From a virus, in the IMG/VR virus record IMGVR_UViG_3300035701_000306, positions 1 to 22,898 of that record: 22,898 nt of DNA; one strand, 5' to 3'. The notes beneath the pieces were generated by a model. It worked only from the letters and a program-made list of their open reading frames with translations, did not search any database and was not told the origin of the DNA. Position 1 is the stretch's first letter. Each line of letters opens with the position of its first letter. A program made the position numbers and the translations under genes. This document shows positions 4,525 through 20,274 of this stretch, one piece after another.

Positions 4525-6378
4525 ATGGCATTTACTCTAGATAAGATAATTTTCTCCCCGGTTTTAGATCCAATATCTATTACACATACTGTTGGATTCG
4601 GTTCGGCGTTGGAACGTAAGTATGCAATTCAAAATATAGATGCCAATGAAGTTAAAATTAACATAAAATCTCCCGCCGGGGTGACTGTTACACCAACATT
4701 TATTCAATTGGCTCCCAACCAGACATCTATTGTACTCGTAACAGCTAATAGAACATTTTTTGATACTTTACCAAAGGGGTCTAATAATTTCAATATAACT
4801 TTTGAATTTATTGGAAAGGGAGATCCAATAAGTGGAACTTCCGATGTTATAGTATTTGAACTTCAATTAACTTCAACTCCAAGTCTTACACTAAAAGTTG
4901 CGGCAACAGCAACAGTAACTGCTCAAGTAATGGAAAAAAATCTTACTAAGCAGACACAAAATGTTGCAATGAATAAAATTATTACTTACGCATCTTCCAA
5001 TACCGGAGTTGTATCTGTGGGGCAGACAACCGGATTAGCAAAGGGAATATCCCCCGGAAACGCTCAAATAACAGTATCGAGTCAGGGTACTGGTGCACAG
5101 ATAGTTTCGGTTGGAGTATATGCTGATGCCGCTGGTCCTCGCTGGTGGGAAAAAGTGGTTGTTAACACTACAACAGCATCAAGATTCTATGCGGGACCAT
5201 TCACTACTAATATTCAACCATATCCAGTTCGTGAAACACGAAATGGTATACTATATGATGTTTATTATCAAAGAATAGAAGAAGATCATATTACTACCAC
5301 CACATATTATTATGATTGGAACGACATAACAGATTCTGTCAAGAATTTAACGGACGCAGAAAAACTGGCACAAGGGTATGTTCCTAGCACCACCAAACCA
5401 GCAGCCCCCGCTCCCAAGACGGTTGATGGAGGAATAGTTCGTGTAGTAACTAATGCTAAATATGAACAACGAATTGTTGCAGTTATCATTGCTCCCGGAG
5501 TATCAATAACTCCTTCGCCCACGCGAGCAGGGATAACAGTAACTCCATCGAAAACTCCGCCAGTAACACCATCGAATACTCCGCCGCTCGGTCAGTTGGA
5601 ACTGTGTACAACGGTGGGAAGGGTGATATCGTCTGTATGGTTAAATGCCACGCAAGATTATGTGTGCCGCGATGTACAAGATAATGTGGTGGGTGGATGT
5701 AAGGCAGGGGGGCAGTGTGGAGCGGAGAATCGGGCAGGAGATAGTGTTAGTCGTACCCCGGCTCCAACTCCTACACCATCTATCACCCCCTCCCCCGGCG
5801 CGCCCCCGCAACCCCTGTGTTACGAGTATAAGTTTTGGTTTGATCAAGAGTCTCCAGCAATATTACCACTGCCGTCAATTAATTATATAGATTGTAGCGG
5901 AACTTCTCGTTCAGAGAATAGTCTTAGCTTTGATAGTTCACAATTTAATCCAATTATTATCTGTGCACGTACAATGGGTTCATATAATCGTCTTACCCCC
6001 GGGACGGTCACTCAAAGTCCAGCATGTCAACCATTCTTACCCCCGAATCCTACTCCATCACATTCACCAATGCCAGCACAGACAATATCGTTTGGCGTCT
6101 TCGGCGGTCGAGGCATAATTAATGGCCACTCCGGGCCGTTCTCTGTAACTATGCCTTGGGGAGAAGGGATGGCGGTAAGTTGTGTTCCCGCCGCCGGGTA
6201 TGCCTTTAGCTATGCAGTTAGGGTAAATGCGTTAGGTAATGACATTGGTAGAATTATTTTACCTGATTTCATGGCATATGCAGACGGAATATTGGATGAA
6301 GTCAGAGCTTATTTCGTCCCAACGGCCCCCGGCAGCATTGGGTCCGGCACTGGTGGAGGGGGAGGATTATTAACATAA
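4525..6378 (+). CDS. Tail protein with BIG2-type domain, Thr/Pro linkers and Cys-bearing modules
   Basis: This is a 617-residue modular protein. Residues ~1-120 form a beta-sandwich-like N-terminal domain. Residues ~125-200 have the BIG2 (bacterial Ig-like group 2) pattern ending in ASSNTGVVSVGQTTGLAKG and the strand that follows it. There are three low-complexity Thr/Pro/Ser linkers: about 325-356 (VTPSKTPPVTPSNTPP), 410-429 (PAPTPTPSITPSPGAPPQP) and 504-518 (PPNPTPSHSPMPAQ). Between them are Cys-bearing modules (cysteines in ELCTT, YVCRD, GGCKAGGQCG; then LCYEY, YIDCSG, IICAR, SPACQ). The protein ends in a Gly-rich tail. The design resembles flexible, surface-exposed tail decorations of large environmental phages. 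The start is supported by GAGGTGAG 5 bp upstream. Host-surface contact is inferred. Confidence 0.75.
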   Translation: MAFTLDKIIFSPVLDPISITHTVGFGSALERKYAIQNIDANEVKINIKSPAGVTVTPTFIQLAPNQTSIVLVTANRTFFDTLPKGSNNFNITFEFIGKGDPISGTSDVIVFELQLTSTPSLTLKVAATATVTAQVMEKNLTKQTQNVAMNKIITYASSNTGVVSVGQTTGLAKGISPGNAQITVSSQGTGAQIVSVGVYADAAGPRWWEKVVVNTTTASRFYAGPFTTNIQPYPVRETRNGILYDVYYQRIEEDHITTTTYYYDWNDITDSVKNLTDAEKLAQGYVPSTTKPAAPAPKTVDGGIVRVVTNAKYEQRIVAVIIAPGVSITPSPTRAGITVTPSKTPPVTPSNTPPLGQLELCTTVGRVISSVWLNATQDYVCRDVQDNVVGGCKAGGQCGAENRAGDSVSRTPAPTPTPSITPSPGAPPQPLCYEYKFWFDQESPAILPLPSINYIDCSGTSRSENSLSFDSSQFNPIIICARTMGSYNRLTPGTVTQSPACQPFLPPNPTPSHSPMPAQTISFGVFGGRGIINGHSGPFSVTMPWGEGMAVSCVPAAGYAFSYAVRVNALGNDIGRIILPDFMAYADGILDEVRAYFVPTAPGSIGSGTGGGGGLLT

Positions 6379-14875: not shown

Positions 14876-15331
14876 ATGAGAAAAAATAGTATACGAACCG
14901 AATGGAAAGTTAAATTTTTAGATAGAATAACTGGCATTCATTTTAGAAATAAAGATAAGGTAGTTGATAAAATATTACGGCGAATAGATTCAAGTAAATA
15001 TGGATTGGTGTCGCGGTCAAAAAAGTACAATGTGGAATGCTTCATAACTATAGAAGATTTGCGGCACATGTTATATGATGCATATGGAACTCCGTGCAAA
15101 TACTGTAATATAATATTAACCATTAAGAATTTGACTATTGATCATATGATTCCAATATCAAAACAAGGAAGTTCTAATAAAGATAATCTTCAAGTTATTT
15201 GTAAAAAATGCAATAAGATAAAAGGTTCTTTGGACGAAGAAAAGTTCAATATTTTATTAGACTGGTTTAAAACAATACCAGATGAATTGCGAAAAGATAT
15301 TTCTATCAGATTGGCGCACGGAATACATTAA
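14876..15331 (+). CDS. HNH endonuclease
   Basis: This 151-residue protein has a complete C-terminal HNH domain. Two CxxC knuckles (C74/C77 and C109/C112) would bind a structural zinc. The catalytic core is LTIDHMIPISKQGSSNKDNL with D89-H90 and N104, followed by ICKKCNKIKGSLDEEKF, which supplies the third HNH residue N113. The N-terminal ~60 residues are basic and may bind DNA. Free-standing HNH proteins of this size are common in T4-like phages as homing endonucleases or DNA-processing enzymes. An in-frame TAA at 14870 fixes the start at 14876; there is no good Shine-Dalgarno. It is first in the cassette, ahead of primase, with 12 bp between them. Target site unknown. Confidence 0.88.
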   Translation: MRKNSIRTEWKVKFLDRITGIHFRNKDKVVDKILRRIDSSKYGLVSRSKKYNVECFITIEDLRHMLYDAYGTPCKYCNIILTIKNLTIDHMIPISKQGSSNKDNLQVICKKCNKIKGSLDEEKFNILLDWFKTIPDELRKDISIRLAHGIH

Positions 15332-16277: not shown

Positions 16278-16940
16278 ATGGAACCTTTATTGGATGCTCT
16301 TATACAAAAATATGGTAGCGACAAGAGTATGTCGAAATACACGCCAATGTATAGTGCTGCATTTACTCCAATGCGAGAAGCTGTTACTTCTGTTTTGGAA
16401 ATTGGAATAGGATCTATTGATAGAACTTTTAAACATAACATGTATGGTAATTTACGAAACTACCCAGATTATCTTCCCGGTGGTTCTCTTTGCGCATGGC
16501 GAGATTTTTTTCCCAAGGCAACGATCTACGGAGTAGATATTGATCCGAAGTGTCATTTAGAGAAAGAGAGAATTGTTACATATATTTTTGATTCGTCTGA
16601 TACCGCCGAGTGCAATAAACAATTATATTCTAAGACATTTGATATTATTATAGATGATGGAGATCATACGCCGTCTTCTCAAATACAGACCGCGCATAAT
16701 TTGTTTTCATTGGTGAGATTTTTGGGTTATTATGTAATAGAAGATTTAGGTGAGTGGACTCGTGATCATACTGTAGAAGAGAATATTAGTGCGTTATCCT
16801 CCATATTAACGCAGCACGAATATTATCACCACCATGGGGGAATACTTTTTATAAGAAAGAATTATAGTAAAAAACAATGTCTGGCATCTAATGAATTTTT
16901 TGAACGCTCTGAATATATATACCCAATAAATTATGTATAA
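16278..16940 (+). CDS. Class I SAM-dependent methyltransferase, TylF/CmcI-like
   Basis: This 220-residue protein has a Rossmann methyltransferase fold. Motif I is VLEIGIGS (E41, G43, G45), the acidic end of strand 2 is YGVDIDP (D87, D89), and FDIIIDDGDH (about 121-130) matches the metal-binding DDG[SD]H of the Methyltransf_24 / macrocin O-methyltransferase-like group. The N-terminus has IQKYGSDKSMSKYTPMY, also typical of that group. Such enzymes modify small molecules, sugars or proteins; the substrate here is unknown. It lacks the motifs expected of DNA N6-adenine or C5-cytosine methyltransferases (no DPPY, no PCQ). An AGGAT (16266-16270) supports the start. Its end overlaps the next gene by 8 bp. 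Confidence 0.82.
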   Translation: MEPLLDALIQKYGSDKSMSKYTPMYSAAFTPMREAVTSVLEIGIGSIDRTFKHNMYGNLRNYPDYLPGGSLCAWRDFFPKATIYGVDIDPKCHLEKERIVTYIFDSSDTAECNKQLYSKTFDIIIDDGDHTPSSQIQTAHNLFSLVRFLGYYVIEDLGEWTRDHTVEENISALSSILTQHEYYHHHGGILFIRKNYSKKQCLASNEFFERSEYIYPINYV

Positions 16941-17637
16941 TATAATACCTGTGAAATTCGATAAATTAACCACAATAGCACAGATCGCTGATATTCATAT
17001 ACGCATACTTCGCCGTCACGATGAATATAAACAGTGTTTTGACATATTGTATAAGCAGTTGCGCGAAGAATTACTGAATGGGAATGGTATTATAGTTGTC
17101 GCTGGTGATGTTGTTCATGCTAAAACAGATATGTCGCCCGAGATGATACAATTGGCATCAGAGTTTTTAAATACATTGGCTAACATTGCTCCCACTATTG
17201 TTATTGCTGGGAATCATGATTGTAATTTATCCAATGTGAATCGATTAGATGCATTATCCCCTATTATAGACAATCTAAAAAATCCCAATTTACATTATTT
17301 AAAACACAGTGGCATCTATACTGTTGCTGATGTGGATTTTGCCGTTCATTCGATTTTGGATGATAGGAGTAAGTGGCCAGTTGCAAATGATTGCAAAGCT
17401 AAGACTAAAATTGCCTTGTATCATGGACCCATTTATGGTGCAAAAACCGATTCCAATTATACAATTACGGATCGTCATGTTGAAATTTCATTGTTTAATG
17501 GATTTGATATAGTCATGCTTGGAGATGTACATAAAAAGCAGACCTTGCAGGAATATTCAGTTGAGGAAATAGAAGTTGATGAGAATGAAGTGGAACAATA
17601 TTTGAAAGATGGGTGGGAAATTGTTGTTCCATTATAA
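16933..17637 (+). CDS. gp47: gp47/Mre11-like nuclease, phosphoesterase core only (C-terminal part missing)
   Basis: This 234-residue protein contains all the metallophosphoesterase motifs of SbcD/Mre11/gp47: ADIHIR (D20, H22), VAGDVVH (D59), AGNHDC (N94, H95, D96), LYHGP (H164) and LGDVHKKQ (G197, D198, H200). T4 gp47 has 339 residues. Here the protein ends soon after the last motif, with a charged tail (VEEIEVDENEVEQYLKDGWE) and a TAA at 17635. The next expected conserved block, PGS-IQQ, is instead near the start of the downstream ORF in the same frame. Start choice is uncertain: ATG 16933 overlaps the methyltransferase gene, and GTG 16951 (VKFDKLTTIAQIADIHI) is a plausible alternative. Neither has a clear ribosome site. 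The protein probably works with the downstream product. Confidence 0.87.
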   Translation: MYNIIPVKFDKLTTIAQIADIHIRILRRHDEYKQCFDILYKQLREELLNGNGIIVVAGDVVHAKTDMSPEMIQLASEFLNTLANIAPTIVIAGNHDCNLSNVNRLDALSPIIDNLKNPNLHYLKHSGIYTVADVDFAVHSILDDRSKWPVANDCKAKTKIALYHGPIYGAKTDSNYTITDRHVEISLFNGFDIVMLGDVHKKQTLQEYSVEEIEVDENEVEQYLKDGWEIVVPL

Positions 17638-17735
17638 AACTTATTAGATTTTGGGCAAGTGAAGTAATTGACGGCGGTTTCTTAGAAAAATTAAAAGAGG
17701 TTTTGTATGAAGAAAGTACGATTAAAAAGAACTAA
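17637..17735 (+). pseudogene. Possible relic of a Vsr/DUF559-like homing endonuclease C-terminus
   Basis: Between the two parts of gp47 the main frame contains stops at 17635, 17665, 17683 and 17692. In the frame starting at 17637, however, the sequence reads as a plausible peptide, KLIRFWASEVIDGG, then FLEKLKEVLYEE, ending at the TAA 17733-17735. The R-F-W-x-x-E-[IV] signature followed by a short amphipathic helix resembles the C-terminus of Vsr-like and DUF559 endonucleases, some of which are homing enzymes. Only ~32 residues exist, there is no start codon for it, and it overlaps the next gene. The resemblance is from memory and could be chance. Confidence 0.35.
17696..17700 (+). promoter_or_regulatory. 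Ribosome binding site deciding the start of the gp47C-gp46 gene
   Basis: AGAGG lies 6 nt before the ATG at 17707. It is a good Shine-Dalgarno match at normal spacing, and so argues that the second half of the split pair is translated independently rather than being an inactive downstream fragment. Confidence 0.65.
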
Positions 17736-20274
17736 ACCCATAATACAATTCAGTGGGTCGGCAATTCAACAAAATCATGCAGAAAAATTGGTTGGACACG
17801 GATGGTGTAAATGGGATATAGATACTTGTACTCATGAATTTGTGGAATTACCAAACGACTATGGATATTATACACTAGAAATGATAAATGGGCAGATACA
17901 ATTTCCTGCGAATCTTCCTAATAATGTACGATTGAGATTATTTACAGGAGATGCAGACGAAACTATCATTAAAAAAACTGTTAGTGCATTGCGTAAAAAA
18001 TATAATGTCATTGAATTAAGTGTTAATCGTACCAAATTTTCATCTGTTGGGAGGCGGGCCAGAACGGATTTACTCGAATTAGGTGATTTGAGTAATGTAA
18101 GTATTCAGAATTCCATGATCGAATCGTGGCTAAAGGCTACACATGGAAAACAGATCAGTACTAAGTTAATAACTAAGATATTGGATATTAATAAAAAGTT
18201 AAATGATGAGATTGAGCACGATGATCAATCTCGAAATGTGCATTGGCGTCCTATAGAATTGAAATTTTCAAATATATTTTCGTATGGAGAAGATAACATT
18301 ATACGATTCGATGGCATGTCTGGTACCTACGGCATTTTTGCGCCCAATGCCAGCGGTAAATCCTCTTCTATGGATGCATTGATATTTGCATTATTTGACA
18401 AAACTCCCCGAGCATTCAAGGGGAGCGACATCATGAATAATAGAAAGTCCAAATTTAATGTTCAACTTATATTTGAAGTAGATAATAAACAATATCTTAT
18501 TCGTAGAGAAGGAATTCGAAAGAAAACTGGGCAAGTGAAAGTAATGGTGGAGTTCCTTTCTATCAATTTAGATGGTTCACTTGTCTCGTTAAACGGGGCC
18601 GAGCGATCAGATACCAATAATAACATTCGTTCTCTTATAGGAACATATGATGATTTTGTGTTAACTGCATTGAGTAGTCAAAATGCCAATTCTTTATTTA
18701 TTGATAAGTCACATTCAGAAAGAAAAGACCTCCTTAATCAGTTTATGGGATTGAACATATTTGATAAATTAGTAACAGTGGCAAATAATGAATCCAAGGA
18801 AGTGCAGGGAGCACTACGCAAATTCAAAAATGATGATTTTACACAGATGTTGGCAGACATTCAAACAGAATTGGACACTCTTGTCGGACAAGAAACAATA
18901 AATAATATACTGCACGGTTCGGTGTCAAAAGAGTTGGTTCAAGTAGAGCAGTTAATCAATGAATTGTATAATGAAAAACTCCCCGTGATTGGTGGGGAAA
19001 TAAATTTAGAAGAACAAAATCAAAAACGAGATCAATTGCACAGTAAGATTTTAACACTGGAACCAGAAATTGATAAAATACAAGGCCAAATAGACAAATT
19101 GGAAATAGAAATCGCAATTTCTCCGAATATAATTAGAACTGAAGCGGAGGTTATTGCAGTGACGGACACCATTTCCATCATTAACAAAGAAATATCTAAA
19201 CTGGAACAGAAAATTACCAAGGAACGAACATTATACAATTCCATTAAGGAACGAGTGGGTTGGTTGGATACATATGAATATGATCCCAATTGCACATATT
19301 GTGTGAACAATGTATTTTTTAAGGCGGCACTGAAAGATAAAGAAGAAATGGACTCCCATTTTGAACAAGTACGAGAATTAACAGAACAAAGAAATTCCGA
19401 GCGATTAAATGTAGAAGATGCCGAGAGTATCCTCAAGAAATATAAGGATGAATTGGCTATTAAAGCTGGCGTTGAACAACTCAAAACACGAAAATTAAAT
19501 GAAACGGTTAAAATACAAGAATTGAAAATGTCTCTTATTGAGATGGAAAAGAAAGTTCTTGAAATAGACGCAAAAATTGAAAAATATCTCGTACAGGAGC
19601 ATGCAATACAACACAACGAAAGTATAGATGCGACGATAGAGACACATAAACAAAATAAAGAACGAGTTCAAACGAATTTGTCCAATATTGATAAAAAGCT
19701 CCGTGAAATTCATGCCGTAATTGAAGTATGCAAATCTCGCAAAGAAGATTGTATTCGAAAAATGCGGGAAGCCGAAGAATTGGAGTTGGAATATGAAGGA
19801 TATCAGTATTATATGGATGCCGTTGGTCGTGATGGGGTTCCGTATGACTTGATTACCAAAATTATTCCTAATATTGAGGCAGAAATTAATAATCTATTAA
19901 CACAAATAGTGGATTTTACAGTCACTTTGACAGTTGATGACAAAAACATCAACGGGAAGATAGTATACGACTACGAGCGTCTGTGGCCGCTGGAAAATAG
20001 CTCAGGAATGGAGCGGTTTATTAGTTCACTCGCTATTAGGGTGGCTTTAATGAAGGCGTCTAACCTGCCCAAGCCCAATTTTATGATAATAGATGAAGGA
20101 TTCTCTGTGCTGGATGCGGAAAATTTGTCTAGTATGTCCAATTTATTCAATATCTTGAAAACTCAGTTTGATTTTGTGATTATTATCAGCCATTTGGATG
20201 TTATGCGAGATGTTGTGGATAATAGTGTAAGTATAAAATCCGAAGACGGATTTAGCAGTTTGAACTATACTTAA
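17707..20274 (+). CDS. gp46: gp46/Rad50-like ATPase carrying the C-terminal part of gp47 at its N-terminus
   Basis: This is an 855-residue protein. Residues ~10-180 match the part missing from the upstream nuclease: IIQFSGSAIQQNHAE, GHGWCKWDID, then LPNDYGYYTLEMINGQ, which is the capping-domain region of gp47/Mre11. From ~182 the SbcC/Rad50 ATPase begins: FSNIFSYGEDN, Walker A in FAPNASGKSS (about 209-220), Q-loop LSSQNANS, a long coiled coil (~330-700) with a zinc hook CTYC (C529, C532), the ABC signature SSGMERF (765-771), Walker B FMIIDEGFSVLD (D796, E797) and the switch histidine in ISHLD (H829). The complex would resect or process DNA ends in recombination-dependent replication. T4 gp46 is 560 residues; the extra N-terminus explains most of the excess. 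Confidence 0.9.
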   Translation: MKKVRLKRTKPIIQFSGSAIQQNHAEKLVGHGWCKWDIDTCTHEFVELPNDYGYYTLEMINGQIQFPANLPNNVRLRLFTGDADETIIKKTVSALRKKYNVIELSVNRTKFSSVGRRARTDLLELGDLSNVSIQNSMIESWLKATHGKQISTKLITKILDINKKLNDEIEHDDQSRNVHWRPIELKFSNIFSYGEDNIIRFDGMSGTYGIFAPNASGKSSSMDALIFALFDKTPRAFKGSDIMNNRKSKFNVQLIFEVDNKQYLIRREGIRKKTGQVKVMVEFLSINLDGSLVSLNGAERSDTNNNIRSLIGTYDDFVLTALSSQNANSLFIDKSHSERKDLLNQFMGLNIFDKLVTVANNESKEVQGALRKFKNDDFTQMLADIQTELDTLVGQETINNILHGSVSKELVQVEQLINELYNEKLPVIGGEINLEEQNQKRDQLHSKILTLEPEIDKIQGQIDKLEIEIAISPNIIRTEAEVIAVTDTISIINKEISKLEQKITKERTLYNSIKERVGWLDTYEYDPNCTYCVNNVFFKAALKDKEEMDSHFEQVRELTEQRNSERLNVEDAESILKKYKDELAIKAGVEQLKTRKLNETVKIQELKMSLIEMEKKVLEIDAKIEKYLVQEHAIQHNESIDATIETHKQNKERVQTNLSNIDKKLREIHAVIEVCKSRKEDCIRKMREAEELELEYEGYQYYMDAVGRDGVPYDLITKIIPNIEAEINNLLTQIVDFTVTLTVDDKNINGKIVYDYERLWPLENSSGMERFISSLAIRVALMKASNLPKPNFMIIDEGFSVLDAENLSSMSNLFNILKTQFDFVIIISHLDVMRDVVDNSVSIKSEDGFSSLNYT

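Follow-up and report, generated by a model that had tools for sequence, protein, structure and literature searches.

How did the gene for a DNA-repair enzyme, the gp47-gp46 (Mre11-Rad50) nuclease-ATPase, come to be broken into two open reading frames (ORFs), and could the two products still work as one enzyme? We examined this in IMG/VR virus record IMGVR_UViG_3300035701_000306, positions 1 to 22,898, and refer to this whole 22,898-nucleotide stretch as the window. Sequence comparison and structure models make it highly probable that a gp47-gp46 fusion was split by a homing endonuclease, that its two chains reassemble through short tails, and that the endonuclease decayed while a working nuclease-ATPase was kept. 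Fused relatives, a common insertion site, endonucleases in relatives, a decay series at that site, shared tails and intact active-site motifs were all observed directly.

Two ORFs for one gp47-gp46 protein

The initial annotation had proposed that gp47 is divided over two ORFs of the same reading frame, the second continuing into gp46. The ORF coordinates and family matches agreed with this, and the four stops and separate ribosome site which it placed between the ORFs were located as follows:

16933..17637, plus strand: ORF1, gp47 (Mre11/SbcD-like) N-terminal part with the metal-binding motifs up to GDVH, plus tail-N; 234 residues
17557..17634, plus strand: tail-N, SVEEIEVDENEVEQYLKDGWEIVVPL, acidic; found by a tail hidden Markov model (HMM), with a modelled strand at 209-216, helix at 217-225 and short strand at 229-230
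17635..17706, plus strand: gap, with in-frame stops at 17635, 17665, 17683 and 17692
17637..17735, plus strand: frame-3 peptide KLIRFWASEVIDGGFLEKLKEVLYEESTIKKN followed by a stop, likely left over from the C-terminus of a Vsr-like homing endonuclease; found by a profile of endonuclease C-ends
17696..17700, plus strand: ORF2 ribosome-binding site AGAGG, seen in the sequence
17707..20274, plus strand: ORF2, gp47 C-terminal part fused to gp46 (Rad50/SbcC-like); 855 residues
17707..17739, plus strand: tail-C, the basic peptide MKKVRLKRTKP; a strand in the joined model (261-268), absent from the closest relative (L017)
17740..18249, plus strand: last gp47 phosphoesterase strands and the capping/Rad50-linking region, by PDB fold match to Mre11
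18250..20271, plus strand: gp46 ATPase, with Walker A NASGKSS, CxxC hook C529/C532, SSGME signature and Walker B IIDEG (alignment A1)

ORF1 matched Pfam Metallophos (E 1.2e-12) and the SbcD-like phrog_100 (3.6e-14), while ORF2 matched the SbcC-like phrog_77 over residues 158-854 (1.6e-47) as well as AAA_23. All of the metal motifs DxH, GD, GNHD, H and GxH are present in ORF1, where the invariant or nearly invariant gp47 columns are D20, H22, G58-D59, G93-N94-H95-D96, H164, G197-D198 and H200 (alignment A6). The invariant Rad50 columns of ORF2 are G217-K218-S219, C529/C532, S766-G767-M768-E769 and D796-E797 (alignment A1). Residues 1-180 of ORF2 aligned with the middle part of single-ORF gp47-gp46 fusions, so that the gp47 block suggested for the ORF2 start held up when the joined translation was compared with fused relatives, and in these relatives the residues align as gp47 and not as an unrelated domain. 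Moreover, a Foldseek search of the PDB with the read-through model (ORF1 plus ORF2 residues 1-184) returned 3qg5_D (E 2.1e-11, 468 alignment columns) and 7dog_B (5.5e-10), covering the Mre11 nuclease and capping domains. The stretch between LGDVHKKQTLQE and KPIIQF, comprising the extra tails, is the non-gp47 sequence.

The break lies within the phosphoesterase domain and not at the border of nuclease core and capping domain, since it is ORF2 that carries the final strands of the core (IIQFSG...QQN...GYYTLE); alignment and model place it in the hairpin following GDxH. The suggestion that one chain contributes the nuclease core and the other the ATPase together with the capping domain needs correction, since the cut falls within the nuclease domain itself.

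Unbroken relatives and gap contents at the shared site

We found an unbroken gp47-gp46 ORF in the closest relative, L017 (loci carry L numbers), and in about 110 others. L017 shares 67% identity with the window over gp47 and gp46, runs continuously through the site as GDIHKYQILQERDEEKLRPVVVYSSSLIQQNHG, and is followed by the same structural gene; both tails and the gap, about 162 bp of the window, are missing there. The distance from GDxH to QQN was 26-36 residues in 118 of the 120 continuous gp47 ORFs that span the site, which come from fetched loci with some contigs counted more than once. Because L017 and the roughly 110 other relatives are unbroken, the window split amounts to about 162 bp of extra sequence inserted into a phosphoesterase beta-hairpin, and the first of the two histories offered by the initial annotation, a gp47-gp46 fusion interrupted inside gp47, was borne out. 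Single-chain Mre11-Rad50 fusions of the same order have been described in Mimivirus R555 and Bacillus phage 0305phi8-36 and are abundant in aquatic virus metagenomes (PMC3175470). They correspond to the intact parent form of the window gene, but no split forms are reported in that paper, whose text contains neither 'split' nor 'homing'. An exact 47-base pattern search of IMG/VR retrieved no near-identical relative of the window.

Split loci were then collected by searches of IMG/VR and phage records. In several other lineages the break fell at the same codons as in the window, and the contents of the gap varied:

Vsr-like endonuclease gene: L077/L081, L119/L120, L212, L179
Zinc-ribbon plus TnsA-like nuclease: L015 (from LR756508.1)
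HNH-type gene: L216
Zinc-finger ORF, incomplete because the contig ends there: L214
Truncated Vsr-like endonuclease: L158 (100 codons), L213 (77)
Endonuclease remnant: L215 and, likely, the window
Unrelated gene of about 311 residues: L057, L065, L070, L094, L131, L139-L143
No gap gene: L147, L159, L172, L184
Apparently re-joined: L072

The L081 gap ORF matched Pfam MTES_1575 (1.8e-7), Vsr (5.4e-6) and DUF559 (5.4e-5), and at some split loci the two ORFs are tightly coupled with zero gap. One site thus presents a graded series from intact endonuclease through truncated gene and remnant to no gap and a re-joined gene. The link to homing endonucleases, which had been proposed by analogy, is now carried by intact endonucleases at the same site in relatives and by a recognisable remnant in the window.

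For the remnant, the L215 gap provided the reference: it codes for VKNSDWKLIRIWESDIKFMTIDKLQTLLYE, terminated by a stop, a clear Vsr-like endonuclease end (E 7e-9). With a profile of endonuclease C-ends that included L215 and excluded the window, the window frame-3 peptide ranked first among 621 window ORFs (E 0.0072); with our first profile, built from six endonucleases, it had ranked second among the window ORFs (E 0.2-0.28), and about 1 in 1,000 endonuclease-free ORF fragments scored as high. Direct family searches gave zero matches for it, and it was recognised only by the profile of relatives' endonucleases. The peptide overlaps the ORF2 start, as do the endonucleases of relatives, and occupies the same position as the L215 remnant. 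We consider it likely, but not certain, that it is an endonuclease remnant, whose 3′ end probably survived because the translation start region of ORF2 lies in it.

Two of the gap genes deserve a separate description. The unrelated gene of about 311 residues (L057 3055-3987) overlaps both neighbours and is conserved in one clade; it has no clear family, with only a weak, sub-threshold match to DUF354, and by eye it looks like a GT9-type sugar transferase. In the gap nuclease of L015 (3064-3981), zinc ribbons occur as repeats and the C-terminal domain is TnsA-like; this domain is also similar to the cyanophage form of the T4 gp4 head-completion protein.

The tails

Paired tails and the repeated occurrence of the split are points that the initial annotation did not contain. 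The halves of every split lineage carry the tails and unbroken relatives are without them, and both the tail-N and the tail-C patterns are common to the split lineages, the tail-N of the window reading YSVEEIEVDENEVEQYLKDGWEIV. A leave-one-out tail-N HMM recovered the window (E 2.3e-10, top of 621 window ORFs), L216 (3.5e-12), L146 (1e-6), L015 (1.6e-5) and L147 (5.5e-4), each as the top ORF of its own locus. The tails also occur inside two continuous ORFs, L146 (KWKEEIVDEKDLDKYLEDGWEIVEENKIRKAQCLAIYPGS) and, in shortened form, L072 (LQEYSCEELVVNESKLTTKKIKHIKPAIKYSG). A tail-only profile search of IMG/VR yielded 13 loci, all 13 of them gp47, and a scan of 84,980 bacterial and archaeal genomes (GTDB) gave no match; phage records searched by tblastn with the window tail gave none either, the query being too short to be informative.

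The net charges of tail-N and tail-C have opposite signs in most of the pairs: they are -8/+6 in the window, where the tail-N value is that of the tail core, -6/+6 in L081, -7/+6 in L215 and -6/+4 in L147. For the lineages whose gap holds the unrelated gene, a single clade, the ratios of non-synonymous to synonymous substitution rates (dN/dS) were 0.15 and 0.31 for the tails and 0.06 for the core. Because purifying selection acts on the tails in this clade, they matter even where no endonuclease is present.

To model the joined protein, we supplied AlphaFold2 with the read-through window protein and a 34-row alignment, with stops as Gly and an artificial linker joining the chains; an alignment with split fragments was left out of folding because MAFFT misplaced their tails. 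The window model reached a mean predicted local distance difference test score (pLDDT) of 85.5. It contained strands at 209-216 (SVEEIEVD) and 261-268 (KVRLKRTK) and a helix at 217-225; pLDDT per 10-residue block was 96, 93 and 88 for residues 201-230 and 94 for 261-270, and 48-63 in the artificial linker. The AlphaFold2 model of L146 showed the same element, with a strand at 197-201, a helix at 204-212 and strands at 216-219 and 222-226. Since these strands were modelled in the window and the same fold in the natural L146 protein, it is most likely that the tails lengthen the interrupted hairpin on either side of the break. The single-chain model is compatible with the halves assembling into an active enzyme.

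On a quick tree of 57 rows, some of them long or partial, which does not distinguish gain from loss, the split or fused state changed at least 11 times and the presence of tails at least 10 times. Holding all 21 tailed rows together was rejected (approximately unbiased test, p-AU 5.8e-5), and a single origin of the split and tails is thereby rejected. The window pairs with the fused L017 (100*), and L077/L118 and L212/L213 form two distinct split pairs, each placed within groups of fused relatives. L072, continuous with shortened tails, groups with the split L214 and L215 and the tailed L217, and the best reading of it is a healed split.

Origin of the split and known parallels

The course of events we propose is as follows. 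A free-standing homing endonuclease gene would have split an ancestral single-chain gp47-gp46 gene in the hairpin after GDxH, leaving an acidic tail of 26 residues on the upstream half and, on the downstream half, a basic one of 11 residues together with a separate ribosome site. In the window phage, the endonuclease would since have been deleted to its last ~30 codons while the split persisted. The two chains would be made separately and reassembled non-covalently without splicing, tail-N (strand-helix-strand) presumably pairing with tail-C (strand) as a hairpin extension that restores the phosphoesterase domain, so that a working nuclease-ATPase would be retained. Several points weigh against this explanation. 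The remnant match in the window is short and of moderate significance (E 0.0072), and the L159 tail was matched weakly (0.046), though as the top ORF of its own locus. Charge pairing is not universal, because tail-N is near neutral in the clade with the unrelated gap gene. The pairing of the two tail strands is read from strand assignments in a linked single-chain model, and the window is a 22.9-kb fragment of a genome that may hold a second complete gp47 elsewhere.

A different account of the tails agrees with the proposed reassembly and places their origin earlier: they would be an ancestral gp47 insertion, repeatedly lost in fused phages, at which endonucleases merely land. In its favour, at least 10 changes are counted on the tree without their direction being told, and the same tails accompany three types of nuclease as well as an unrelated gene, so that they are more constant than the cargo. 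Fused homologs, however, far outnumber tailed ones, 118 of the 120 continuous ORFs are short-looped, and splits are nested inside short-loop clades; we consider this account unlikely. It is less probable still that the split inactivated gp47 and left ORF2 as a lone ATPase. The decayed endonuclease and the four stops in the gap would fit such a pseudogene, but the metal-binding residues and ATPase motifs are all intact, which argues against it, and ORF2 retains its own ribosome site. Moreover, the same split is kept in many lineages with tails under purifying selection, and some splits consist of the tightly coupled, gapless ORFs.

Removal of the insert by a group I intron or split intein to yield a single protein seems very improbable, although Vsr-like endonucleases are known from introns and from split-intein fractured genes (Dassa et al. 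2009). Rfam returned no match in 16900-18400 of the window at E<=1 and no intron match in eight split relatives at the gathering threshold; the tails lack intein motifs (N-terminal Cys block, HN-C/S/T junction), and L146 holds the tail region in a continuous ORF. On inspection of the tails, neither IntN nor IntC was seen at the break, nor HN-C/S/T at the end of tail-C, and a split intein was rejected, as was a programmed frameshift joining ORF1 and ORF2, which would require two shifts through frame 3. That the fusion gene is in fact intact and was wrongly sequenced or assembled is hardly credible: the difference is not a point change but 162 extra bp with four stops and tails matching unrelated contigs, and the homologous arrangements in many other contigs largely refute it.

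Beyond the proposed split and reassembly, we tentatively raise the possibility that the two tails together act as a protein staple which is portable, works without splicing and moves along with the insertion, the mobile unit being tail-N, stop, cargo gene, ribosome site and tail-C. If so, the unit would repeatedly enter the gp47 hairpin while the broken enzyme stays alive, would outlive the endonuclease, permit exchange of cargo and be healable into a longer single chain. Next to introns and inteins, this would be a third way for a homing endonuclease to be accommodated within an essential gene.

The principle of such assembly is already known from the split NrdA of Aeromonas phage Aeh1, where nrdA-A and nrdA-B flank mobE and the halves form an active enzyme with no intron or intein (PMC2988022, PMC3267527). 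There, as proposed for gp47, the gene of an essential enzyme is interrupted by that of a homing endonuclease at a place critical for function; the host gene differs (NrdA versus gp47), and the gp47 arrangement recurs in many lineages, several of them endonuclease-free and two with the tails in a continuous ORF. Crona et al. (2011), cited in PMC3267527, reportedly described tail-mediated assembly of the Aeh1 split NrdA and attributed the interaction domains to the mobile element. The gp47 tail HMM gave no match to the Aeh1 NrdA halves, and we do not claim descent from the Aeh1 element because the gp47 tails show no detectable homology to them. Other split replication genes associated with endonucleases and still functional are the T4 gene 39/60 topoisomerase (mobA) and Aeromonas phage 25 gene 43A/43B (PMC2988022), similar to gp47 in this association. 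In fractured genes with split inteins, the endonuclease gene likewise lies between the halves (Dassa et al. 2009, doi 10.1093/nar/gkp095). A break by an endonuclease gene, as proposed for gp47, is common to both, whereas gp47 is without intein halves, and its tails stay on and are predicted to associate. The endonuclease in the fractured genes of Dassa et al. is said to belong to a Vsr-like family.

We found no report of a split gp47 in the literature searched, in which subscription journals were thinly covered. Few split phage genes with functional halves have been described, and the mutual recognition of the halves has been called a fascinating structure-function question (PMC2988022). What makes gp47 interesting is that the split recurs, that decay can be followed as a series and that the tails stay under selection once the endonuclease is lost. 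One site in one enzyme offers a natural series of unbroken gene, endonuclease, remnant, other gene, nothing, and re-joined gene with tails inside. With tails shared across unrelated lineages and selected after endonuclease loss, their role in assembly is directly testable. It could account for the survival of endonucleases in essential genes that undergo no splicing, and the tails are potential compact natural split-protein tags for which complementation of the nuclease can be assayed.

Further interruptions and neighbouring genes were also noted. In L158 (4685-7204) and L179 (5464-6063) the Rad50 P-loop itself is broken: one ORF ends in NQGGKCLRADSKIVIKYDLDEIEKKLGFIPEELK, and HQYYSNDIVSHNTVFTVDAIKFLLFGK is found further on, in another ORF of L158. 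This interruption of Walker A looks like a split intein, and because gp47C is broken once more there, one gene is in at least four pieces. In the window, a methyltransferase-like gene (16278-16940; phrog_21658, 5.3e-10) lies between primase and gp47, while primase adjoins gp47-gp46 directly in L002 and L017. Ahead of primase, an HNH (endonuclease VII-like) ORF at 14876-15331 may be another endonuclease or a replacement nuclease; L002 and L017 carry a small conserved gene (MKPRSAK...) at that place. The structural region of the window includes an ORF at 4525-6378 with Pro/Thr/Ser-rich stretches of the TPSITPSP type, possibly a fibre or adhesin linker.

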